64,000 nt of DNA, taken from assembly GCF_041261445.1 (NCBI RefSeq), contig NZ_JBGCCU010000002.1, positions 62,001 to 126,000 of the forward strand, given 5' to 3'. Each line of letters opens with the position of its first letter. Within the stretch, counting starts at the first letter, position 1. Of the stretch, positions 36,138 through 49,617 are shown one piece after another. Under the pieces are notes generated by a model, which did no database searches, had not been told where the DNA came from, and was given only the letters and a program-made list of their open reading frames with translations. The position numbers and the translations under genes were made by a program. The stretch comes from Catenulispora sp. EB89 (lineage in GTDB: Bacteria; Actinomycetota; Actinomycetes; Streptomycetales; Catenulisporaceae).

Positions 36138-37664
36138 TCAGCTCTTCGTCTGAGGCACCTCGCCGACCTCCAAGTCCAGCACCGCGACCGCGCCCCGGCC
36201 GCTGGGGGCCGGCCGGAGATCGAAGGTGCCCTTCAGATCGCCGTGCACAAGTGTTCTGACGATCTGAAGTCCGAGGTTCCCGGCCGTGGCGGCGTCGAAA
36301 CCCGCCGGCAGCCCGTTTCCGTCGTCGGTGACGACCACGCTGAGCCGGGGACCGGAGCGCCGGGCCTCGACCTCGAGCGATCCCCCGCGGTCGGCCAGGC
36401 CGTGTTCCAGCGAGTTCTGCAGGACCTCGGTCAGCACCATCGACAGCGGGGTGGCGATCTGCGCGGACAGGATGCCGAAGCGCCCCACGCGGCGCGAGCG
36501 CACGCTCACCCCGCCGGGGCCGCCCGGACCGCCGGCGCCGACGTCCACCACCATCTCCAGCACCCGGTCGGCGATCTCGTCGAAGTCGACCTGCTCGTCC
36601 AGGGTCTGCGACAGCGTCTCGTGGACCAGTGCGATCGAGCCGACCCGGCGGACCGCCTCCTCCAGCGCGGCCCGGCCGGTGCCGTCCTCGATGCGCCGGG
36701 CCTGCAGGCGCAGCAGCGCGGCCACGGTCTGCAGGTTGTTCTTCACCCGGTGGTGGATCTCCCGGATGGTCGCGTCCTTGCTGATCAGCTCGCGCTCGCG
36801 GCGGCGCAGCTCGGTGACGTCGTGCACCAGGACCAGCGCGCCGGTGCGCTCCCCCTGCGGCCGCAGCGGGATGGCGCGGAGCTGGACCACGGTGCCGTTG
36901 CCCTCGACCTCGGCCTCGCGCGGCTTGCGGCCGGAGGCCACGACCTGCAGCGCCTCCTCCATCGCGCCCTGGACCGGGGCCAGGGTCGCGGTCAGGTCGC
37001 CGAGATGCTCCCCCACCATGTCGGCGGCGTAGCCGAGCCGGTGGTAGGCGGACAGCGCGTTCGGGCTGGCGTAGACGACGGCGCCCTCGGCGTCGAGCCG
37101 GATCACCCCGTCGCCGACCCGCGGGGAGTTGTCCTGCTGGTCGCGGGACTCCGGGTAGGGGAAGATCCCCTCGGAGATCATCCGCGAGAGGTCCGCCGCG
37201 GTCTGCAGATAGGTCAGCTCCAGCCGGCTCGGGGTGCGGGCGGCGAGCAGGTTGGTGTTGCGGGAGATCACCGCGATGATCCGGTCCCCGCGGCGGACCG
37301 GGATCGCCTCGACCCGGACCGGCACGTCCTCGCGCCACTCCGGGTCGCCCTCGCGCCGGATCCGCCCGGAGTCGATGGCCAGGTCCAGCATCGGCCGCTC
37401 GCCGCGCCGCAGCGTGGAGCCGACCAGGTCGGCGGTGTAGCAGGTGGGGCCGGTGTTCGGGCGCATCTGGGCGACCGCGACGTAGCCGGGGCCGCCCAGC
37501 GGGGCGGGCTCGGGGTCGGTGCCGCCCTCGGTCCGCAGCGGGGCCCACAGCACCAGGTCGGCGAACGACAGGTCGGCCAGCAGCTGCCAGTCCGCGATCA
37601 GCAGGTGCAGCCAGTCCAGATCGGCCGCGTCGAGGTCGGTCCGCGTGTGGATCAGGTCGTTCAT
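36138..37664 (-). CDS. Sensor histidine kinase with GAF-like and PAS domains (HisKA_2 type)
   Basis: 508-residue soluble histidine kinase. N-terminal ~160 residues form a GAF_3-like sensor (DLSFADLVLWAPLR, VAQMRPNTGPTCYTADLVGS); a PAS domain follows (GVIRLDAEGAVVYASPNALS); then the HisKA_2 box REIHHRVKNNLQTVAALLRL with the phosphorylated His, and an HATPase domain (LTEVLQNSLEHG, DDGNGLPAGF). No membrane helix, so it senses a cytosolic signal. No response regulator gene is adjacent. I start at ATG 37664 (MNDLIHTRTDL), matching related kinases; ATG 37673 is an alternative. It is convergent to wblE. Confidence 0.9.
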   Translation of the reverse strand: MNDLIHTRTDLDAADLDWLHLLIADWQLLADLSFADLVLWAPLRTEGGTDPEPAPLGGPGYVAVAQMRPNTGPTCYTADLVGSTLRRGERPMLDLAIDSGRIRREGDPEWREDVPVRVEAIPVRRGDRIIAVISRNTNLLAARTPSRLELTYLQTAADLSRMISEGIFPYPESRDQQDNSPRVGDGVIRLDAEGAVVYASPNALSAYHRLGYAADMVGEHLGDLTATLAPVQGAMEEALQVVASGRKPREAEVEGNGTVVQLRAIPLRPQGERTGALVLVHDVTELRRRERELISKDATIREIHHRVKNNLQTVAALLRLQARRIEDGTGRAALEEAVRRVGSIALVHETLSQTLDEQVDFDEIADRVLEMVVDVGAGGPGGPGGVSVRSRRVGRFGILSAQIATPLSMVLTEVLQNSLEHGLADRGGSLEVEARRSGPRLSVVVTDDGNGLPAGFDAATAGNLGLQIVRTLVHGDLKGTFDLRPAPSGRGAVAVLDLEVGEVPQTKS

Positions 37665-37781
37665 GGACGGCATGCTTCTTGGTATCACAAGCCGGCGCCC
37701 ACGACTGATTGCCGGCCCGGACAGCGCCCCCCACGATCGTTTTGGAAGTTCCGGCAGGTCCGGAGCCATGCCGGGGGCGGG

Positions 37782-37796: not shown

Positions 37797-38969
37797 GTGA
37801 GCACCCTCGACCAGCCTTCCCAGCATCCGCTGTCCTGGCTCGCCGGCCACGCGGACGAGCGCCGCGCCGCCGGGCTGCGCCGGACCCTGGTCCCGCGCGG
37901 CGCCGACTCGGCGCTGATCGACCTCGCGGGCAACGACTACCTCGGCCTGACCCGGCATCCGGAGGTCGTCGAGGGCGCGGTCGAGGCGGTGCGGCGCTGG
38001 GGCACCGGCTCCACCGGCTCGCGGCTGGTGACCGGGACCACGGAGCTGCACGCGGAGTTGGAGGCCGAGCTCGCCGCGCACGCCGGCATGGAGGCCGGCC
38101 TGGTGTTCTCCTCCGGCTACCTGGGAAACCTGGGCGTCATCACCGCACTGGCCGGCCGCGGCGACCTGATCGTCTCGGACAGCCTCAACCACGCCTCGAT
38201 CATCGACGCCGCGCGGCTGTCGCGGGCCCGGGTCACGGTCACTCCGCACAGCGATGTGGAGGCCGTCTCGCGGGTCCTGGCGGACCGGTCCGAGGAGCGG
38301 GCTCTGGTCGTCGTCGAATCCTTGTTCTCGGTGGACGGGGACACAGCACCCCTCAGAGAGCTCCACGAGGCCTGTAGAGCGCACGGCGCGGTCCTTGTGG
38401 TGGATGAGGCGCACGGGTTCGGTGTGGCCGGTCCTGAGGGCCGTGGAGCCGTTTTCGACGCCGGGCTCGCCGGACAGCCGGACGTGATCGTGGCCGCCAC
38501 CCTGTCCAAGGCGCTGGCCTCGCAGGGTGGGGCGATCCTGGGCTCGGCCGAGCTGGTCGCGCACCTGGTGGACGCCGCGCGGTCGATGATCTTCGACACC
38601 GGGCTGGCCCCGGCCGCGGCCGGGGCGGCGCTGGCCGCGCTGCGGGTGATCCGGCGCGACCCGGGGCTGCCGGAGCTGGTGCGGAAGCGGTCGTGGGAGA
38701 TCTACGAGCTGGCGCTGGCCCTCGGGCTGGAGGCCACTCCCCCGAGCGGCGCGGTGACGTCGATCATCATGGGCGCGCCCGAGGCCGCGGTGGCCGCGCG
38801 GGACTTCTGCCTGGAGCGCGGGCTGCACGTCGGCTGTTTCCGGCCACCGTCCGTCCCGGACGGAAAATCACGTCTCCGAGTGACGGCACGTGCGGATTTG
38901 TCCGACCTTGAGGCCGACCGGATCCGTTCGGTCTTGAGCGAACTCGCGGAGAATCCCGCACAGGTCTAG
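37797..38969 (+). CDS. bioF: 8-amino-7-oxononanoate synthase
   Basis: 390-residue PLP enzyme that condenses pimeloyl-ACP/CoA with alanine, the first committed ring step of biotin synthesis. Marks: IDLAGNDYLGLTRHPEV, GTGSTGSRLVTGTTELHAEL, VVVDEAHGFGVAGPEGRGA and the PLP-lysine segment ATLSKALASQGGAILGSAEL. Start GTG 37797 with no ribosome-binding site. bioD and bioB lie ~11 kb away; no bioA is seen in the window. Related C-acyl transferases (KBL) have a different active-site pattern. Confidence 0.92.
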   Translation: MSTLDQPSQHPLSWLAGHADERRAAGLRRTLVPRGADSALIDLAGNDYLGLTRHPEVVEGAVEAVRRWGTGSTGSRLVTGTTELHAELEAELAAHAGMEAGLVFSSGYLGNLGVITALAGRGDLIVSDSLNHASIIDAARLSRARVTVTPHSDVEAVSRVLADRSEERALVVVESLFSVDGDTAPLRELHEACRAHGAVLVVDEAHGFGVAGPEGRGAVFDAGLAGQPDVIVAATLSKALASQGGAILGSAELVAHLVDAARSMIFDTGLAPAAAGAALAALRVIRRDPGLPELVRKRSWEIYELALALGLEATPPSGAVTSIIMGAPEAAVAARDFCLERGLHVGCFRPPSVPDGKSRLRVTARADLSDLEADRIRSVLSELAENPAQV

Positions 38970-38978: not shown

Positions 38979-38994
38979 AATGGTCTAGTCCACA
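38979..38994. promoter_or_regulatory. Candidate DasR site 2 upstream of nagA
   Basis: AATGGTCTAGTCCACA carries TGGTCTAG-T-CCA, one base from the core dre element TGGTCTAGACCA. It ends 10 nt before the nagA start codon, overlapping the likely -10 region (CACAAT), where bound DasR would block RNA polymerase. Confidence 0.7.
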
Positions 38995-39004
38995 ATCTTT
39001 TCTC

Positions 39005-40213
39005 GTGACCAGCATCTCTGCTCCGCGCGTCCTGCTGGACGGACGCCTGGTGGGACCCGCCACCGTCGTCGTCGACGACGGCGTCGTGGCCGAGGTGCTG
39101 GACGGCGCTTCGCCCGAGGCCGACATAACCCTGGACTCCGGCGTGCTCACGCCGGGTCTGGTGGACATCCAGACCAACGGCTGCTTCGGCGTCGACTTCA
39201 TCACCGCCTCCGACGACGACTGGCGGCTGGTCTCCGACCGGCTGCCGGGCACCGGCGTGACGGCGTTCCAGCCGACGTACATCACCGCGCCGCTGGAGAC
39301 CCTGCTCGCGGGGGTGGAGCGGGCCGGTGCGGTCTTCGGCTCCCTGCGGGGCGCGCAGGCGATGGGGGTCCACCTGGAGGGACCGTTCCTGTCGCCGCTG
39401 CGCCCCGGGGTCCACGACCCCCGGTACCTGGTCGAGCCGACGCCGGAGCGCGTCGGCTCGATCCTGGCGACCCGGACCGCCGAGGGCACCCGCGGCGTGG
39501 TCACGATGGTGACCCTGGCCCCGGAGCTCGACGGCGCCCTGGAGGCGGTACGGCGCCTGTCCGAGGGCGGCGTGCGGGTCTCGCTGGGGCACACCGACGC
39601 GCTGGCCGCGCAGGTGCTCGCCGCGGCGGACGCCGGCGCGAGCCTGGTCACGCACATCTTCAACGCCCAGCGCCCGCTGAACCACCGCGAGCCCGGGGTC
39701 CCCGGCGCCGCGCTGTACGACTCCCGGTTCACCTGCGGGCTGATCGCCGACCTGCACCACGTGGCCCCGGAGATCTGCACACTGGTCTGGCGCGCGGCCG
39801 GCGGCCGGGTGGCACTGGTGACGGACGCCATAGCGGCGGCCGGAATGCCGCCCGGCGAGTACGAGTTGTCGGGGATCAAGGTTCACCTCGGCGAGGACGG
39901 CGTGCCGCGGGACGCGGCCGGCGTCATCGGCGGCTCGGCGCTGACCCTGGACCGCGCGGTCCGCAACCTGGTCGGCATCGGCCTGGACGAGGCCTCGGTG
40001 CTGGTCGCGGCCACCCGGGTGCCCGCCGACGCGCTGGGCCGGACCGATCTGGGCCGCATCGCCCCCGGCGCCCGCGCCGACCTGGTGTGGTTCGACGACG
40101 GGTACCACCCGCTGCACACCTGGGTCGCAGGGCGTAGCGTATTCGAGGCCGGTTCCGGCGCCCAGGCGCCGGACGGGCCCCACAGACTGGCGAGGGAGCA
40201 CCAGCCCGCCTAG
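39005..40213 (+). CDS. nagA: N-acetylglucosamine-6-phosphate deacetylase
   Basis: 402-residue amidohydrolase that converts GlcNAc-6-P to GlcN-6-P and acetate. Visible sites: DIQTNGCFGVDF (start of the barrel), the metal Glu in GVHLEGPFLSPLR, His in VSLGHTDALAAQ and LVTHIFNAQRPLNHREPG, and the catalytic Asp in VALVTDAIAAAGMPPGEYEL. Start GTG 39005. Two DasR-like sites in its promoter link it to the das genes 3-10 kb downstream; in Streptomyces nagA is a DasR target. Confidence 0.94.
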   Translation: MTSISAPRVLLDGRLVGPATVVVDDGVVAEVLDGASPEADITLDSGVLTPGLVDIQTNGCFGVDFITASDDDWRLVSDRLPGTGVTAFQPTYITAPLETLLAGVERAGAVFGSLRGAQAMGVHLEGPFLSPLRPGVHDPRYLVEPTPERVGSILATRTAEGTRGVVTMVTLAPELDGALEAVRRLSEGGVRVSLGHTDALAAQVLAAADAGASLVTHIFNAQRPLNHREPGVPGAALYDSRFTCGLIADLHHVAPEICTLVWRAAGGRVALVTDAIAAAGMPPGEYELSGIKVHLGEDGVPRDAAGVIGGSALTLDRAVRNLVGIGLDEASVLVAATRVPADALGRTDLGRIAPGARADLVWFDDGYHPLHTWVAGRSVFEAGSGAQAPDGPHRLAREHQPA

Positions 40214-42127: not shown

Positions 42128-43177
42128 TCAGTGTGTCTGCGTCACCTTTGCCAAGGCCCGCGGCGCGTCCGGGTTCAGACCCCGGCTCATCGTCACGTGG
42201 TAGGCCAGTTGCTGCAACGGCAGGATCTCCAGGATCGGCGCCAGCTCCTCCGGGACGCCCGAAGGGAGCACGAAGCCTGCTGTAGCGCCTGCGACGTGCT
42301 CGGCGGAACCGACCACGACCAGGTCGGCGCCGCGCTCGCGCAGCCGCTCCAGCACCGGCTCCAGCGCCGTGCCGCCGGCGCCCTCGGCCGCCACCGCGAC
42401 CACCGGGCTGACGTTGTCGACCATGGCCAGCGGGCCGTGCAGCAGGTCCGCGCCGGAGAAGGCGTGGGCCGGCAGGTAGCTGGTCTCCATGATCTTCAGC
42501 GCGGCTTCGCGCACGGTCGGGTACGAGTACCCGCGCGCGGTCAGCACCAGCCGGGAGGCGAAGCGGTAGCGCTGCGCCAGGTCGACCACCTCGGACTCCC
42601 GGGCCAGCACCGCGGCGGCCAGCTCCGGCAGCGCCCGGGCCGCCGAGCCGTCGCCGCCGCGCAGGGCGTCCACCAGGAGCCACAGCGTCAGCAGCTCCGC
42701 GGTGTACGTCTTGGTCGCCGGAAGAGCCAGCTCCGGACCCGCCAGGACGTCCAGAGACAGCTCAGAGGCCTGGTTCACCGGCGAGCCGGCGACGTTGGTG
42801 ACGGCCAGCGTCAGCCCGCCGCGCGCCTTCGCCATCTCGGTGTACGCCACCAGGTCCGGCGAGCCGCCGGACTGCGAGACCGTCACGCAGAGCACGTCCC
42901 GCAGGTCCGGCTCGGCCCGGTAGGCCGTCGTGGTCGACATCGACGTCAGCCCGACCGGCAGCCCGAGCGCGATCTCCATGAGGTACTTGGCGTAGTACGC
43001 CGCGTTGTCGCTGGTACCGCGGGCGGTGAGCAGCGCGAAGCGCGGCCGGGCCGCTTTCACGCGCTCGGCCGTCTCGCGGATGCGCGGCAGTCCCTCGGTG
43101 AGGATCCGTTCGAGGACCGCCGGCTGTTCGGCGATCTCGCCGGCCATGATTTCGCCGGGCGTCGCTTCGCCGGGCAT
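42128..43177 (-). CDS. SIS-domain sugar-phosphate isomerase/deaminase (GlmS-C-like, NagB-II candidate)
   Basis: 349-residue protein with two SIS domains and no glutaminase domain. SIS1: ARFALLTARGTSDNAAYYAK-like start and VTVSQSGGSPDLVAYTE; SIS2: ARGYSYPTVREAALKIMETS and DLLHGPLAMVDNVSPVV, ending in RGLNPDAPRALAKVTQTH. This is the pattern of GlmS isomerase-domain homologues such as AgaS and the NagB-II GlcN-6-P deaminases. It sits directly after the GH3 gene, where Streptomyces has nagB. I place the start at ATG 43177 (AGGTGGG 7 nt upstream); GTG 43189 and ATG 43147 are alternatives. Reaction inferred: GlcN-6-P to fructose-6-P plus ammonia. Confidence 0.82.
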   Translation of the reverse strand: MPGEATPGEIMAGEIAEQPAVLERILTEGLPRIRETAERVKAARPRFALLTARGTSDNAAYYAKYLMEIALGLPVGLTSMSTTTAYRAEPDLRDVLCVTVSQSGGSPDLVAYTEMAKARGGLTLAVTNVAGSPVNQASELSLDVLAGPELALPATKTYTAELLTLWLLVDALRGGDGSAARALPELAAAVLARESEVVDLAQRYRFASRLVLTARGYSYPTVREAALKIMETSYLPAHAFSGADLLHGPLAMVDNVSPVVAVAAEGAGGTALEPVLERLRERGADLVVVGSAEHVAGATAGFVLPSGVPEELAPILEILPLQQLAYHVTMSRGLNPDAPRALAKVTQTH

Positions 43178-43189
43178 GACGTCGCCCAC

Positions 43190-44974
43190 CTAGACCGTTC
43201 CCTCCGTCAGGAGCCGGGCGACGGCGAGCCCGGACACCAGCGCCGCGCCGTGCGTGGCGATCAGCGTCGCCCCGCCGGACTTCTCCCCCCGACCGTAAGC
43301 GATCCCCATCTCGACCACGATCGCGTCGGGCCGGACGGCGGTCACGGCGGCCACGGCGGCGGCCATCCAGGCGTGCCGGTGCGCGTCGCGCACCACCAGC
43401 ACCAGCGGACGGCCCGCGGCGGCAGCCACGGCTTCCGACACCCCGGCCGAGGTGTACGGGAGGGCGGCGAGCCGCGGGCGCACCGCGGCCAGCGCGGCGG
43501 CGGTGTCGTCGTCGCCGGCGAAACTGGTCGCGGAGCCGGGCTCCACGAACCGCGTGGCCACGGAGCCGGCCGGGAGTTCGGACAGCACCGGGCTCAGGCC
43601 CCAGGGCACCGCGTTGCCGGCGGCGTTGTTGGCCAGCGGCACGAACTCCAGGATCGACGCCGGACCGGTCAGCGGGGCCAGCGGGACGCCGGAGACCGTG
43701 ACGGCGCGCAGCGCGGCGGTCAGGCCTATCTGCGCGGCGTCATCGGAGTCGGCCGCAGCCGAGACCGCGACCGCCGGCGAGGCCGAGGCCGAAGCCAGGC
43801 CCGAAGCCGAAGCCGAACCCGAGGCCAGGCCCGAAGCCGAACCCGGTCCCGAACCCGACGCCGAAGCCGGGACGCCGTTCGCCGACACCGACACCGACGC
43901 CGCCCCCGAGGAGCTGCCGGCGCCGGCGTCACCCCCGGCAGCGTGCGTCCCCTCCACGGTCGCACGCTGCGCGGCGGCCCACGCCCCCAGCTCCCGCACC
44001 CGCGTCGCGGCGTCGTGCAGCCGCTCGGCGGGCAGCCGGCCCGCGCGCACCGCGTCGACCAGCGCGTCCCGCAGCATCAGGTAGTCGCACTCGTCGCGCA
44101 GCCCGCCGCCGACGCAGACCGCGTCGACGCCCGCGGCCAGCGCCAGGACCGTCCCCTCGGCGATCCCGAAGGTGTCGGCGATGGCGGCCATCTCGATGCC
44201 GTCGGTGACCACCAGCCCGGTGAAGCCGAGCTCGCCGCGCAGCAGGTCCACCAGGACCTTGCGGCTCATGGTCGACGGGAACTCCGGGTCGTAGCGCGGG
44301 GCCAGGATGTGCGCGGTCATCACCGACTTCACCCCGGCTTCGATCGCGGCCCGGAACGGCGCCAGGTGCTTGGCCCACTCCTCGTCGGAGTGCTGCACCA
44401 GCGGCAGCCCGTGGTGGGAGTCCACCGCGGTGTCGCCGTGGCCGGGGAAGTGCTTGGCGCACCCGGCCACGCCGGCCCCCTGCAGGCCCCTGACGTACGC
44501 CGCGACGTTGCGCGCCGCCACGCCCGGATCGGACCCGAAGGACCGGGTGCCGATCACCGGGTTGTCCGGGTTGGTGTTCAGGTCCGCGTCCGGCGCGTAG
44601 TTCAGGTTGATGCCGGCCCGCCACAACGAGCGCCCGATCTGCCGGGCGACCGTCTCGGTCAGCTCCGGGTCGTCCACGTACCCCAGGGCGTAGTTGCCCG
44701 GGAACGCCGACCCGGTGGCGACGTCCAGCCGGGTGACGTCGCCCCCTTCCTCGTCCACCGCGACCAGCACGTGCGGGTTCTCGGCCCGCAGCGCCGCCGA
44801 CAGCTCGCCGGTGCGTTCCGGCGTCGCGGCTATGTTCCGTCCGTAGTAGGCGACCCCGCCCAGGCCGTCCTCCGTCAGGGCGCGACGCACCCAGTCGGGA
44901 ACCCGGCCGGAGTCGTCGTTGACGAACCCCGGCTGGAGGACGGCGGCGGCGTCGCGCAGCAGTTGTTCTCCCAC
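43190..44974 (-). CDS. Glycoside hydrolase family 3 beta-N-acetylhexosaminidase (DasD-like)
   Basis: 594-residue cytosolic enzyme (no signal peptide). NagZ-type signature KHFPGHGDTAVDSHHGLP near residue 180 carries the catalytic His-Asp; the nucleophile Asp is in LVVTDGIEMAAIADTFG. After the ~360-residue barrel comes a ~65-residue Ser/Ala/Gly-rich linker (SASGLASGSASASG) encoded by a repeat, then a ~200-residue second domain. It should split imported chitobiose into GlcNAc. Start GTG 44974 behind GGGGGA. It follows dasC, as dasD does in S. coelicolor. Confidence 0.88.
   Translation of the reverse strand: MGEQLLRDAAAVLQPGFVNDDSGRVPDWVRRALTEDGLGGVAYYGRNIAATPERTGELSAALRAENPHVLVAVDEEGGDVTRLDVATGSAFPGNYALGYVDDPELTETVARQIGRSLWRAGINLNYAPDADLNTNPDNPVIGTRSFGSDPGVAARNVAAYVRGLQGAGVAGCAKHFPGHGDTAVDSHHGLPLVQHSDEEWAKHLAPFRAAIEAGVKSVMTAHILAPRYDPEFPSTMSRKVLVDLLRGELGFTGLVVTDGIEMAAIADTFGIAEGTVLALAAGVDAVCVGGGLRDECDYLMLRDALVDAVRAGRLPAERLHDAATRVRELGAWAAAQRATVEGTHAAGGDAGAGSSSGAASVSVSANGVPASASGSGPGSASGLASGSASASGLASASASPAVAVSAAADSDDAAQIGLTAALRAVTVSGVPLAPLTGPASILEFVPLANNAAGNAVPWGLSPVLSELPAGSVATRFVEPGSATSFAGDDDTAAALAAVRPRLAALPYTSAGVSEAVAAAAGRPLVLVVRDAHRHAWMAAAVAAVTAVRPDAIVVEMGIAYGRGEKSGGATLIATHGAALVSGLAVARLLTEGTV
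43794..43841. repeat. Hexamer-based repeat in the GH3 linker
   Basis: The 18-mer GCCAGGCCCGAAGCCGAA occurs at 43794-43811 and 43824-43841, within a longer array of GAAGCC-like hexamers (about 43775-43870). In the gene's minus-strand frame it gives Ala-Ser-Gly repeats. The same GGCTTC/GAAGCC hexamer, in the other orientation and frame, builds the LRR-protein tail. Confidence 0.7.
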
Positions 44975-44988
44975 GCGCGCCGTTCCCC

Positions 44989-45876
44989 CTACCCCTTCAC
45001 CGCGCCGGCGGTCAGACCGGTCGCGATGTTCTTCTGGATGGCCAGGAACAGGATGACCACGGGGATCGAGGTGATCGTGGCGCCGGCCATCAGCACGCCC
45101 CAGTCGGTGCCGCGCGAGCCGGTGGCGGTCTGGACCAGCCAGGCCATCATGTTCTGCTTGCGGGGGTCGTGGTTGATGGTGGTGATCAGGATGAACTCGT
45201 TCCAGGCCTGGATGAAGCCGTAGACCGAGGTCGCGACCAGGCCGGGGCCGGTCAGCGGCAGGATGATGCGGAAGAAGGTCTGCCAGCGGCTGCAGCCGTC
45301 GACCATCGCCGCCTCGTCCAGCTCGCGCGGGATGTTGGTGATGAAGCCGCGCAGCGTCCAGACCGTGTAGGGCACCGAGAACACCAGGTAGGTGAGGATG
45401 ATGCCGTAGAGGGTGTCGGTCATGTTCAGGTTCTGCAGGGTCTGCGTCACCGGGATGACCAGCACGATCAGCGGGACCATCTGCACCAGCAGGACGGTGA
45501 AGATGATCACCTTCTTGCCGGCGAAGTGGAACCGGGCGATGGCCAGCGCGCCGAAGAACCCGACGACCAGCGACACCACCACCGCGCCGAGCGTGATCAC
45601 GACGCTGTTCCACAGGTCGATGCCGAAGTTCGAGGCCTGGAAGGCCCCGGTGAAGTTGCGGAACGTGGGGTGCTCGGGGATGAAGTGCGGCGTGTAGTTC
45701 TGCCACTCGCTGAGCCGCTTCAGCGAGGTGTTGAGCATCCAGTAGACCGGGAAGCCCATCACCACGAAGACCAGGATGCCCAGGGTGTTCCAGGCGGCCT
45801 TCTTGCCCTTCTTGCGGCCCGAGCCGGGACGCGGGGCGACGGTCCGGCGACGGCCGGGATTGATGTCGACGCTCAT
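44989..45876 (-). CDS. dasC: Chitobiose-type ABC transporter permease DasC
   Basis: 295-residue MalG-type permease with six predicted helices; N-terminal basic segment RRRTVAPRPGSGRKKGKKA, then helices. The EAA loop is DEAAMVDGCSRWQTFFRIIL. Start ATG 45876 shares one base with the dasB stop (TGATG). With dasA, dasB and an unlinked MsiK-like ATPase (not in the window, as usual in Streptomyces) it imports N,N'-diacetylchitobiose. Substrate is inferred from locus and DasR sites. Confidence 0.88.
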   Translation of the reverse strand: MSVDINPGRRRTVAPRPGSGRKKGKKAAWNTLGILVFVVMGFPVYWMLNTSLKRLSEWQNYTPHFIPEHPTFRNFTGAFQASNFGIDLWNSVVITLGAVVVSLVVGFFGALAIARFHFAGKKVIIFTVLLVQMVPLIVLVIPVTQTLQNLNMTDTLYGIILTYLVFSVPYTVWTLRGFITNIPRELDEAAMVDGCSRWQTFFRIILPLTGPGLVATSVYGFIQAWNEFILITTINHDPRKQNMMAWLVQTATGSRGTDWGVLMAGATITSIPVVILFLAIQKNIATGLTAGAVKG

Positions 45877-46844
45877 CAGTCAGCGTCTCCGATCCGCAGC
45901 ATCTGCCGCACGTAGAAGATCATCATCCCGAGCATCGCCAGGATGGTCAGGATCGAGATCGCGGCGCCGAGCCCGTAGTCGCTGTGCCCGAACGCCTGGG
46001 TGTAGGAGAAGACGCTGAGCACCTGGTAGTCCGGCTCCGGCTTGGTCTGCCGGATCACGAACACCTGGTTGAACAGCTGGAAGTCCCAGATCACCGACAG
46101 CGAGGTGGCGATGATCAGCAGGGGCTTGATGGTCGGATAGGTGACCGTGCGGAATACCTGGAACGGGTTGGCCCCGTCCATGCGCGCGGCCTCGCCGAGC
46201 TCCTTGGGCACCATCGACATGCCGGCGGTCAGCGTCACGGTCAGGAACGGCAGCGCCTGCCAGACCACCAGGGCGATGATGACGATCCAGCCCTGCACCG
46301 GGTCCACGAACCAGTCGTGCGTCTTGAACCCGTGGAAGCCCAGCTTGTCCAGCATGTAGTTGATGACGCCGAAGTTCGGGTCGGTGAACCACACGAACAG
46401 CTCGACCGCGACGATCTGCGGGATCGCCCAGACGAACAGCAGCAGCGCCATCAGCGGCGTGCGGACCCAGCGGGACAGCTGGTTCATCATCAGCGACAGC
46501 AGCAGCGCGATGGCCATGGACAGGACCACCAGGACCGCGCAGACCACGAAGGTCCGCTCGACCACGGACCAGAAGTCCGCGCTGCCCAGGACGTCGGAGA
46601 AGTTCTGGAACCCGACCCAGTCGCCGGGCTTGTTCGTGTAGAGCTCACGCTTGGTCTGGTGCTGGAAGGCCAGCACCACGATCTTGTAGAGCGGGATCCC
46701 CAGCGTCACGACGATCACCAGGAGCGTCGGGATCACCAGGAAGTACGGAGTCGATTCGAACCGTCGGCGCTTCGGCGGGCGCTCGTCGCCCAGCGTCGGA
46801 GGCGGTTCGAGGGGGCCTACAGCCTTCCCCACTACCGCGGTCAT
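45876..46844 (-). CDS. dasB: Chitobiose-type ABC transporter permease DasB
   Basis: 322-residue MalF-type permease. An N-terminal cytosolic ~30 residues (PPKRRRFESTPYF) precede six helices, beginning FLVIPTLLVIVVTLGIP. EAA loop: GEAARMDGANPFQVFRTVTY. ATG 46844 is preferred because AGGTGAGG lies 7 nt before it; GTG 46850 is too near. Two hairpins lie between dasA and this gene. Confidence 0.88.
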   Translation of the reverse strand: MTAVVGKAVGPLEPPPTLGDERPPKRRRFESTPYFLVIPTLLVIVVTLGIPLYKIVVLAFQHQTKRELYTNKPGDWVGFQNFSDVLGSADFWSVVERTFVVCAVLVVLSMAIALLLSLMMNQLSRWVRTPLMALLLFVWAIPQIVAVELFVWFTDPNFGVINYMLDKLGFHGFKTHDWFVDPVQGWIVIIALVVWQALPFLTVTLTAGMSMVPKELGEAARMDGANPFQVFRTVTYPTIKPLLIIATSLSVIWDFQLFNQVFVIRQTKPEPDYQVLSVFSYTQAFGHSDYGLGAAISILTILAMLGMMIFYVRQMLRIGDAD

Positions 46845-46868
46845 GTGCACACCTCACCTCGTTGAAGA

Positions 46869-46896
46869 GGCCGTGCCGCGAGTGCGCGGCACGGCC
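46869..46896 (-). terminator. Intercistronic hairpin dasA-dasB, proximal to dasB
   Basis: 11-bp stem GGCCGTGCCGC (46869-46879) / GCGGCACGGCC (46886-46896). Such stems between a binding-protein gene and its permeases commonly keep the binding-protein mRNA in excess. Confidence 0.6.
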
Positions 46897-46922
46897 CCCA
46901 CCGGAAACTCACCCGGGTGTCG

Positions 46923-46952
46923 CGGACACCGCCTTCGAGGAGGCGGTGTCCG
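46923..46952 (-). terminator. Intercistronic hairpin dasA-dasB, proximal to dasA
   Basis: 12-bp perfect stem CGGACACCGCCT (46923-46934) / AGGCGGTGTCCG (46941-46952), 22 bp after the dasA stop. Acts as partial terminator or mRNA stabiliser (inference). Confidence 0.65.
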
Positions 46953-46973
46953 TACCCCTGAAGAAGCGCTGGA

Positions 46974-48377
46974 TCAGCTCTTGTTCAGGATCGAGGTGAT
47001 CTGGTCGTCCGCGGCCTTGGCCGCGTCGGCGACCGAGGACTTGCCGGTCGCGATGCTCTCCGCCATGTTCTGCAGCACGTTGCTGGACTCCACGTCGGCC
47101 CAGTTCGGGGCGACCGGGGTGAACCAGCTGGACGCGGCCTGGTCGGCCACCTGCTGGCTGATCGCCGGGCCCACCGCCTTGGCCAGGTCGGTCTGGTTGT
47201 TCGGCAGGTTGCCCAGCGCGCCCTCGGCGGCGTTGGAGGCGGAGTTCGTGTAGTCCTGGATCCACTCCGCGGCCAGGGCCTGGTACTTCGACTTCTGCGC
47301 GATGCCCAGGACCGAGCCGCCGAGGAAGGCCGGCGACGGCTTGTCAGCGGTGACACCGGGCAGCGGCATGGTGGCGACCTTGCCCTTGACCTTGGTGTCC
47401 TCCAGCGGCGACTTCGGGTCGTTGGGGTTCTGGTTCACCTGCTGCACGGCACCCAGGTGCCAGGCCGCGTCGTACTCGGCGAAGACGTTGCTGGTCTCGA
47501 ACAGGGTGTCCTGGTCTGACTCGTCCTTGGTGTGGCTGGCCGCGGTGGAGTACTTGGAGACCAGGTCGGACCACTGCTGCAGGCCGGAGATGGACTTGGG
47601 GTCCTCCAGGTTGCCCTTCCACTTGCCGTCCGAGCCCTTGACCGCGAACGAGCCGCCCTGGCCGTAGACGAAGGAGCCGACCTGGTACCAGTCCTTGCCC
47701 GGGGCGTTGTAGGTGACGAAGTTCGGGTTGGAGGCGTTGGCGGCCTTGACCTTGTCCAGCGCCGCGGTGAAGTCCGACCAGGTGGTCGGCGGGGTGGTCA
47801 CCCCGGCCGCGGTCAGCAGGTCGGTGCGGTAGATCAGGGTGCGGGTGCCCGCGTAGTACGGGATGCAGTACAGGTGCCCGTCCTGGGTGCAGGGCGCGGA
47901 CAGGCCGTTGAGCCAGGTGGCGTTGTTGTCGAAGGTCGACTTCACCGACGAGACGTCGGCCAGCGCGCCGTTGAACGCGTACTTCGGGGCCTCGGTGTTG
48001 CCCAGCTCGACGATGTCCGGGACGTCGCCGTTGCCGCCGAGCGTCGCGTCCAGGTTCGTCAGGTGGTTGGACCAGGTCTGCCAGATGATGTTGATATCAG
48101 CACCGGTCTTGGCCTTGAAGGCGGCCGTGGCGTTGTTGATGATCGCCATCCACTTGGGGTTGTCCTTGGGGTCCGAGACCAGCCAGACGTTCAGCTTCAC
48201 GCCGGTCGCGCCGGTCGTCGGCCCGGTCAGCGCCGGGGCGTTGGTCGCGGTGACCGAGCCGCCCTGCGAGGGCGCGCCGTTGGCGGACGAGCCGCTCGAC
48301 TTGGACGAGCTGCACGCGGAGGCCATGAGCGCCACGGCCGCGGCGGCCGACGTCAGGGCTATGAGCTTGCGCCTCAT
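46974..48377 (-). CDS. dasA: Chitobiose-type ABC transporter substrate-binding lipoprotein DasA
   Basis: 467-residue extracytoplasmic lipoprotein. Lipobox MASAC (Cys22) after a hydrophobic signal, Ser/Gly-rich linker, then a family-1 solute-binding fold: LNVWLVSDPKDNPKW, VPDIVELGNTEAPKYA, YAGTRTLIYRTDLLTAAG, PPTTWSDFTAALDKV. It captures the sugar for DasBC. GGAG lies 6 nt before ATG 48377. The promoter region carries two DasR-like sites; dasR is divergent. Confidence 0.88.
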   Translation of the reverse strand: MRRKLIALTSAAAAVALMASACSSSKSSGSSANGAPSQGGSVTATNAPALTGPTTGATGVKLNVWLVSDPKDNPKWMAIINNATAAFKAKTGADINIIWQTWSNHLTNLDATLGGNGDVPDIVELGNTEAPKYAFNGALADVSSVKSTFDNNATWLNGLSAPCTQDGHLYCIPYYAGTRTLIYRTDLLTAAGVTTPPTTWSDFTAALDKVKAANASNPNFVTYNAPGKDWYQVGSFVYGQGGSFAVKGSDGKWKGNLEDPKSISGLQQWSDLVSKYSTAASHTKDESDQDTLFETSNVFAEYDAAWHLGAVQQVNQNPNDPKSPLEDTKVKGKVATMPLPGVTADKPSPAFLGGSVLGIAQKSKYQALAAEWIQDYTNSASNAAEGALGNLPNNQTDLAKAVGPAISQQVADQAASSWFTPVAPNWADVESSNVLQNMAESIATGKSSVADAAKAADDQITSILNKS

Positions 48378-48589
48378 GCCGTACTCCTTGGTGGGTGTGG
48401 ACGACCCACTGCGACCAACGGAGATAGACCGACCGCGCGACACGGCAACCCTGAGCGATGCCGTCCCGTGCTGCGATAATCGGTGTACCCGGTCTCGTGG
48501 ATCTGGTTGTGGTGTCGAGCTGTCGGGAAATACGGGGCAAGTTCCTGCGAAGAAAAGGCGCCTCCTGAAGCGCCTCCCCGCCTTTCCCG

Positions 48590-48605
48590 ATTGGTTTAGA
48601 CCAGT
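48590..48605. promoter_or_regulatory. Candidate DasR site (dre) between dasA and dasR
   Basis: ATTGGTTTAGACCAGT matches the dre consensus ACTGGTCTAGACCAGT at 14 of 16 bases. The 430-bp intergenic region (48378-48807) around it holds no other feature I recognise besides the second site. Confidence 0.75.
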
Positions 48606-48611
48606 CCGGAG

Positions 48612-48627
48612 ACTGGCATAGACCACT
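48612..48627. promoter_or_regulatory. Second candidate DasR site between dasA and dasR
   Basis: ACTGGCATAGACCACT matches the dre consensus ACTGGTCTAGACCACT at 14 of 16 bases. Its centre is 22 bp, two helical turns, from the first site. CCAGTC and GACTGG between them form a further inverted repeat. Confidence 0.75.
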
Positions 48628-48807
48628 GGGGTCGTCAAGAGAGCGCGACCCCGGTTGTCCAACCCGTTACCAAGACGCAACCAGCACTGACATACATAAT
48701 CCCGCCCCAGGTAAACACCGGTTTCCGAACAAAGTCGGCACCGAGATCAACCCGGCTGGACACACACGCGGGTCCATGGCACTTTGGGCCACGAGGAGGG
48801 GCCGTTC

Positions 48808-49617
48808 ATGACCGCAGAACCCGCGAACATCGCTCTGGAGACGCAGGGCCCGCAAGGGCCGGCGCCGGCGCTTGAATCAGGGCTGGAATCAGCACTGGAA
48901 ACGGTGCGCGTTCCCAAGTACTACCGCCTGAAGCAACACTTGCTGGACCTCACCCAGACGATGCCCCCGGGCACCCCGGTCCCGCCGGAACGCCTGCTCG
49001 CGACCGAGTTCGACACCTCGCGCACCACCGTCCGGCAGGCGCTGGCCGAGCTGGTCGTGGAGGGCCGCCTGGAGCGGATCCAGGGCAAGGGCACCTTCGT
49101 GGCCAAGCCGAAGGTGGCGCAGTCGCTGCAGCTGACCTCCTACACCGAGGACATGCGGGCCCAGGGCCTGGAGCCGACCTCGCGGCTGCTGGAGATGGAG
49201 TACGTGGCCGCCGGAGTGGAGCTCGGCGAGCGCCTGGGCATCCGGGCCTCGGCGAAGGTGCTGCGCATCAGCCGGCTGCGACTGGCCAACGGCGAGCCGA
49301 TGGCGATCGAGACCACGCACCTGTCGCAGCAGCGCTTCCCCAACCTGCGCAAGCTGCTGGGGCGGTACTCCTCGCTGTACACGGCGCTGGCCGAGGAGTA
49401 CGGCGTGCACCTGGGCGAGGCCGAGGAGACCATCGAGACCGCGCTGGCCACCCCGACCGAGGCCGGGTTGCTGGGCACCGACACCGGGCTGCCGATGCTG
49501 CTGCTGTCGCGGCACTCGATCGACACCGAGGGGGAGCCGGTGGAGTGGGTGCGGTCGGTGTACCGGGGCGACCGGTACAAGTTCGTGGCGCGGTTGAAGC
49601 GGCCGGACGACGAGTAG
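48808..49617 (+). CDS. dasR: GntR/HutC-family regulator DasR
   Basis: 269-residue repressor. Winged-helix domain at residues ~35-100 ([49 protein letters not shown]), then a UTRA effector domain ([30 protein letters not shown]) ending [15 protein letters not shown], nearly the same wording as Streptomyces DasR. DasR is released from DNA by GlcN-6-P and controls chitin/GlcNAc use, development and antibiotics. GGAGGG precedes ATG 48808. N-terminal ~30 residues are variable. Confidence 0.94.

Follow-up and report, generated by a model that had tools for sequence, protein, structure and literature searches.

A predicted NagB-II-type glucosamine-6-phosphate deaminase at the end of the Catenulispora das cluster, beside a classical NagB encoded elsewhere in the genome

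The window, i.e. the whole stretch of 64,000 nucleotides of the Catenulispora sp. EB89 genome that was analysed, contains a dasR/dasABC/GH3 cluster whose last gene encodes a protein built from SIS domains. The minus-strand open reading frame was confirmed at 42128-43177, with an ATG start and a product of 349 amino acids, while an alternative GTG start at 43189 (42128-43189, minus strand, 353 amino acids) lies directly 3' of the stop codon of the GH3 gene. The following features frame the locus.

38981-38992, dre-like site TGGTCTAGTCCA, one mismatch, upstream of nagA
39005-40213, plus strand, nagA, GlcNAc-6-P deacetylase (TIGR00221, 251.7 bits, cut-off 225.65)
42128-43177, minus strand, two-SIS-domain protein, predicted NagB-II-like GlcN-6-P deaminase (Pfam, HMM, residues, tree, AlphaFold model)
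43190-44989, 5' end approximate, minus strand, GH3 beta-N-acetylglucosaminidase-like gene in the dasD position (PF00933, 237 bits)
44989-45876, minus strand, ABC permease in the DasC position (PF00528)
45876-46850, minus strand, ABC permease in the DasB position (PF00528)
46974-48380, 5' end approximate, minus strand, solute-binding protein in the DasA position (PF01547)
48592-48603, dre-like site TGGTTTAGACCA, one mismatch, between dasA and dasR, with a counterpart in the Catenulispora rubra and Catenulispora pinisilvae loci
48614-48625, second dre-like site TGGCATAGACCA, two mismatches, 22 bp from the first
48784-49617, plus strand, DasR-like GntR/UTRA regulator, divergent from the das genes (PF00392, PF07702)

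Membership of the DasR regulon is defined by a dre in the promoter of the transcription unit, and the two sites in front of dasA, at 48592 and 48614, would place the das genes within it; the same paired arrangement between dasA and dasR is found in most relatives. The nagA gene, located about 2 kb from the SIS gene on the side opposite the das genes, is preceded by a further, weaker dre-like site (three mismatches, at 38962), and its product supplies the substrate of a GlcN-6-P deaminase. Genome-wide, one-mismatch dre sequences are not enriched (34 versus 65 in a reversed control), and the sites are therefore argued from position and conservation, not from counts. The GH3 protein has the beta-N-acetylhexosaminidase family NF003740 as its best NCBIfam match, below the cut-off.

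In Streptomyces the gene order is dasR-dasA-dasBCD-nagB, with nagB divergently transcribed (PMC7017467), in agreement with the statement in the original prediction that dasD is followed by nagB in S. coelicolor. Of 80 named loci examined, nearly all likewise have the SIS gene after a dasR/das/GH3 cluster, and its placement there is therefore not a matter of chance. Across the order, this position of the das cluster is occupied by the SIS gene, by nagB or by the two together, and the situation in the window is thus not peculiar to this genome.

In a comparison with three other loci, the dasABC transporter genes (44989-48380) are 95-99% identical to those of C. rubra, and only 40-50% identical to those of C. 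pinisilvae and Catenulispora pinistramenti, whereas the DasR, GH3 and SIS genes on either side reach 96-98% identity; hence, as judged from these identities, the transporter cassette seems to have been exchanged at its original position. The NagA of the window is only about 40% identical to Streptomyces NagA, and a second NagA is encoded in the same genome. Near the SIS gene lies a histidine-kinase-like gene (36138-37670, product starting MPSMNDL), whose streptomycete counterparts adjoin the nagB/SIS slot, often with a dre site in front.

The protein itself contains two copies of the SIS domain (PF01380) and no other Pfam domain, and accordingly lacks a glutaminase domain; together with the reading frame and the gene order, this bears out the original description of a two-SIS-domain protein without glutaminase domain at the end of the das cluster. 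The classical NagB models, PF01182 and TIGR00502, do not recognize it. The AlphaFold model (mean pLDDT 93, pTM 0.92) shows a GlmS-isomerase-type fold spanning the full length, and its closest structural matches, all with Z above 40, are 3fj1, the GFAT and GlmS isomerase domains, 7kqa and Shewanella NagB-II, scores that lie too close together for the fold to distinguish a synthase from a deaminase. By sequence, the best PDB matches are 7kqa, titled GlcN-6-P deaminase from Stenotrophomonas, and 3fj1. In E. coli GlmS numbering, S303, S347, Q348, S349, K485, E488, H504 and K603 are all kept, the changes T352 to S and S401 to A match NagB-II and not GlmS, and both the SQSGxSPD motif and the C-terminal KVTxT motif are present, the latter following NagB-II. 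In a maximum-likelihood tree the SIS clade groups with NagB-II with support 98/90, the reference set being three NagB-II structures and the tree tool giving a long-branch warning, and GlmS, FrlB and AgaS fall apart from it, which answers the comparison that the original prediction had called for.

The original prediction further proposed that this protein had replaced the classical enzyme, i.e. that the SIS-type deaminase took over from a lost nagB by non-orthologous replacement. The slot occupied by nagB in other streptomycetes does hold the SIS gene here, and a takeover of this kind is the actual state in 17 of 148 relatives. However, a profile search of the contigs detected two PF01182 proteins in the genome, one of which is a canonical nagB (contig C24, 164839-165627; TIGR00502 248.9 bits, cut-off 236.9; NF001684 418.5 bits, cut-off 326) with a one-mismatch dre, TTGGTCTATACCAA, about 60 bp upstream. 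This dre is kept in seven of seven Catenulispora genomes, including the present one, although neither the spacing to the gene nor the neighbouring bases are constant. An intact classical nagB with a DasR-type site is one of the findings that the original prediction had named as its own refutation; the SIS gene does not replace classical nagB in this bacterium, and the replacement reading is left with very little probability. The stronger PF01182 match, on contig C28, was rejected as nagB: it is a 6-phosphogluconolactonase (TIGR01198, 224 bits, above the cut-off) in an opcA-pgl neighbourhood.

The distribution of the two genes across genomes is the strongest functional evidence for a deaminase role. 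Among 148 Streptomycetales genomes, 56 carry the SIS gene and 131 a classical NagB: 39 have both, 17 the SIS gene only and 92 NagB only, and a search for genomes devoid of both deaminases found none among the 148. All 17 NagB-less genomes thus carry the SIS gene (Fisher p 1.2e-8, not corrected for shared ancestry). In these 17, the PF01182 search returns only pgl-type proteins (223-250 bits), and NagA is present in every one, so that the pathway is present without NagB; in some relatives, therefore, the SIS enzyme is the only deaminase found. About two thirds of 49 named SIS-bearing genomes likewise lack NagB, with 18 giving any match at E<1e-20, one of which, only 37% identical, was not counted as NagB. 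When NagB presence is mapped on the SIS tree, six changes are needed, at least four of them forced by well supported branches. Outside the order, the SIS enzyme and NagB tend to avoid each other, with 4 genomes containing both against about 18 expected (p 9e-7), weak NagB-like matches of 33-38% identity not being counted as NagB.

The NCBIfam NagB-II equivalog NF046059, built on Shewanella SO3506, gives 183 bits against a cut-off of 430, for which reason we file the protein as NagB-II-like and not as a member of the equivalog. The GlmS C-terminal models score slightly higher, at 202 and 195 bits, TIGR01135 giving 194.6 bits (cut-off 418) through a match to the C-terminal part only; combined with an active site nearly identical to that of GlmS, this raises the possibility of a synthetic role, either that of a GlmS-like GlcN-6-P synthase using ammonia or that of a sugar-phosphate isomerase. 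We regard that as improbable, since a full-length GlmS is encoded in the same genome, the SIS gene belongs to a catabolic operon and takes the place of NagB in genomes without it, and S352, A401 and the C-terminal KVTxT all follow NagB-II. Another substrate, for an FrlB-like fructosamine-6-phosphate deglycase or an AgaS-like galactosamine-6-phosphate deaminase, would be compatible with the shared two-SIS architecture and with Glu488 and His504, which are common to all these enzymes. The scores to the corresponding models are nevertheless low (FrlB NF008481 43 bits, cut-off 430; AgaS TIGR02815 27 bits, cut-off 529), the alignment shows Lys603 in the window protein but in neither FrlB nor AgaS, the tree sets both apart, and the DasR, chitobiose and nagA context, like the alternation with NagB, points to GlcN-6-P, leaving a different substrate only a slim chance. 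Finally, Streptomyces NagS (SCO4393), a GlcNAc-6-P dehydratase, likewise contains a SIS domain and acts in GlcNAc metabolism in the same order; it is a relative of MurQ whose single SIS domain extends across the protein, and it is restricted to Streptomycetaceae and encoded beside dmdR1 (PMC12680351). With two SIS domains, a das-locus position and 22.6 bits to the MurQ model TIGR00274, the window protein is set apart by that very description, and we give a NagS-like dehydratase next to no credence. The tree, the catalytic residues and the co-occurrence instead lend good support to the function originally guessed, that of a NagB-II-type GlcN-6-P deaminase, and it is very probable that the product is a second type of enzyme, structurally unrelated to the classical one, for the conversion of GlcN-6-P to fructose-6-P.

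How the two genes came to share one slot is suggested by the locus anatomy in relatives. In 30 of the 39 genomes with both, nagB and the SIS gene lie side by side and are transcribed divergently, with 167-559 bp between them; all ten such loci that were read have a one-mismatch dre in this gap, after dasABCD. Most NagB-less loci place the SIS gene after the GH3 gene, in the same orientation, and keep the dre pair between dasA and dasR. A dre of its own (at most two mismatches, over the 400 bp in front of the SIS gene) was absent from 30 of 31 loci, comprising 29 NagB-less genomes and two Catenulispora, with a single weak match at L056. The window shows this appended arrangement, yet nagB has been kept at another locus in Catenulispora. 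Distant SIS homologues of about 40% identity are found next to DasR-like genes in further families of the class, and several of them have a dre-like site. Taken together, the pairs, the appended SIS genes, the NagB-less loci and the distant homologues lead us to infer an ancestral back-to-back nagB/SIS pair with differential loss, from which either gene has likely since been lost or moved. In ten loci, L056 among them and mostly from Kitasatospora, the das cassette is flipped with respect to the SIS gene, and most of these have a second solute-binding gene in front of it.

SIS-type GlcN-6-P deaminases are already known. Proteobacterial NagB-II enzymes, exemplified by Shewanella denitrificans (8eol, 8eym, 8fdb), Stenotrophomonas maltophilia (7kqa) and Xanthomonas nagB-II, share with the window protein the two SIS domains alone, the catalytic residues, the C-terminal KVTxT, the fold (Z 42-43) and an amino-sugar operon, but differ in sequence (about 25-35% identity), and neither DasR control nor attachment to a chitobiose-import operon is a feature of theirs. 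DasR control of a nagB-II is known as well: Saccharopolyspora erythraea nagB-II is listed among the DasR-repressed GlcNAc assimilation genes (PMC11076491, 2024), and was compared with the window gene by name and DasR control. The classical NagB of the Streptomyces das locus (SCO5236 type) agrees with the window protein in predicted reaction, locus and DasR control, whereas its fold is unrelated (PF01182) and the classical gene lies here on another contig. The GlmS isomerase domain has the same fold and nearly the same active site, in contrast to the lack of a glutaminase domain, the catabolic operon and the S/A in place of T/S at 352/401 in the window protein. A search of the open-access literature returned no description of a SIS enzyme in the Streptomyces das locus, nor of the nagB/SIS pair.

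Based on these comparisons, we hold with considerable confidence that the window gene encodes a NagB-II-type deaminase, the last gene of a predicted DasR-controlled das operon, acting beside a classical NagB and probably descending from a pair ancestral in the order. Fold, residues, phylogeny, co-occurrence, synteny and sites are computed results, while the activity is predicted. By homology with the GlmS isomerase domain, the histidine would open the GlcN-6-P ring, the glutamate would shift a proton between C2 and C1 of the substrate, and the C-terminal lysine would assist, yielding fructose-6-P and ammonia. Operon transcription and DasR binding are likewise predicted: the SIS gene would close the dasABC-dasD transcript, governed by the predicted DasR sites between dasA and dasR, so that chitobiose import, hydrolysis and amino-sugar deamination would be induced together. 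The SIS enzyme would then work alongside the classical NagB, which has a DasR-type site of its own.

The genome encodes a second SIS protein, an 86% identical paralogue on contig C9 (L013, 7669-11440), whose gene points away from that of a MocR-type regulator, with a GH46 chitosanase gene after the latter. The chitosanase makes this a GlcN-releasing context and hence an independent hint at the substrate; no clear dre site was found at the paralogue. The MocR-SIS pair appears to recur in C. rubra, where the same kind of regulator seems to lie upstream of a SIS copy. In addition, a dre-like site, TGGTCTGTACCA, is located about 36 bp ahead of the start codon of glmS (contig C30; L018, 6338-6353) and is found in nine of nine Catenulispora genomes read, which suggests that DasR may also touch GlcN-6-P synthesis.

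DasR is released by GlcN-6-P and GlcNAc-6-P, and both GlcN and GlcNAc are toxic to nagB mutants of S. coelicolor (PMC12680351); the type of deaminase therefore matters for GlcNAc signalling and antibiotic control. Annotation that seeks a classical nagB would call the 17 SIS-only strains deaminase-free, while these same strains represent ready-made material on enzyme type versus DasR signalling. The GlcN-6-P step within the DasR feedback exists in three natural states in Streptomycetales, i.e. classical NagB only, SIS type only, or both as a back-to-back DasR-controlled pair. A changed setting of the DasR inducer level, raised in the original prediction, is a hypothesis in the same vein. Since differences in kinetics or allostery between the two enzymes are possible, we put forward, as a tentative idea that we consider rather less than probable, that the state might set the strength of GlcNAc and GlcN as signal and toxin. 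In that case, the model derived from S. coelicolor would not hold for the SIS-only lineages.
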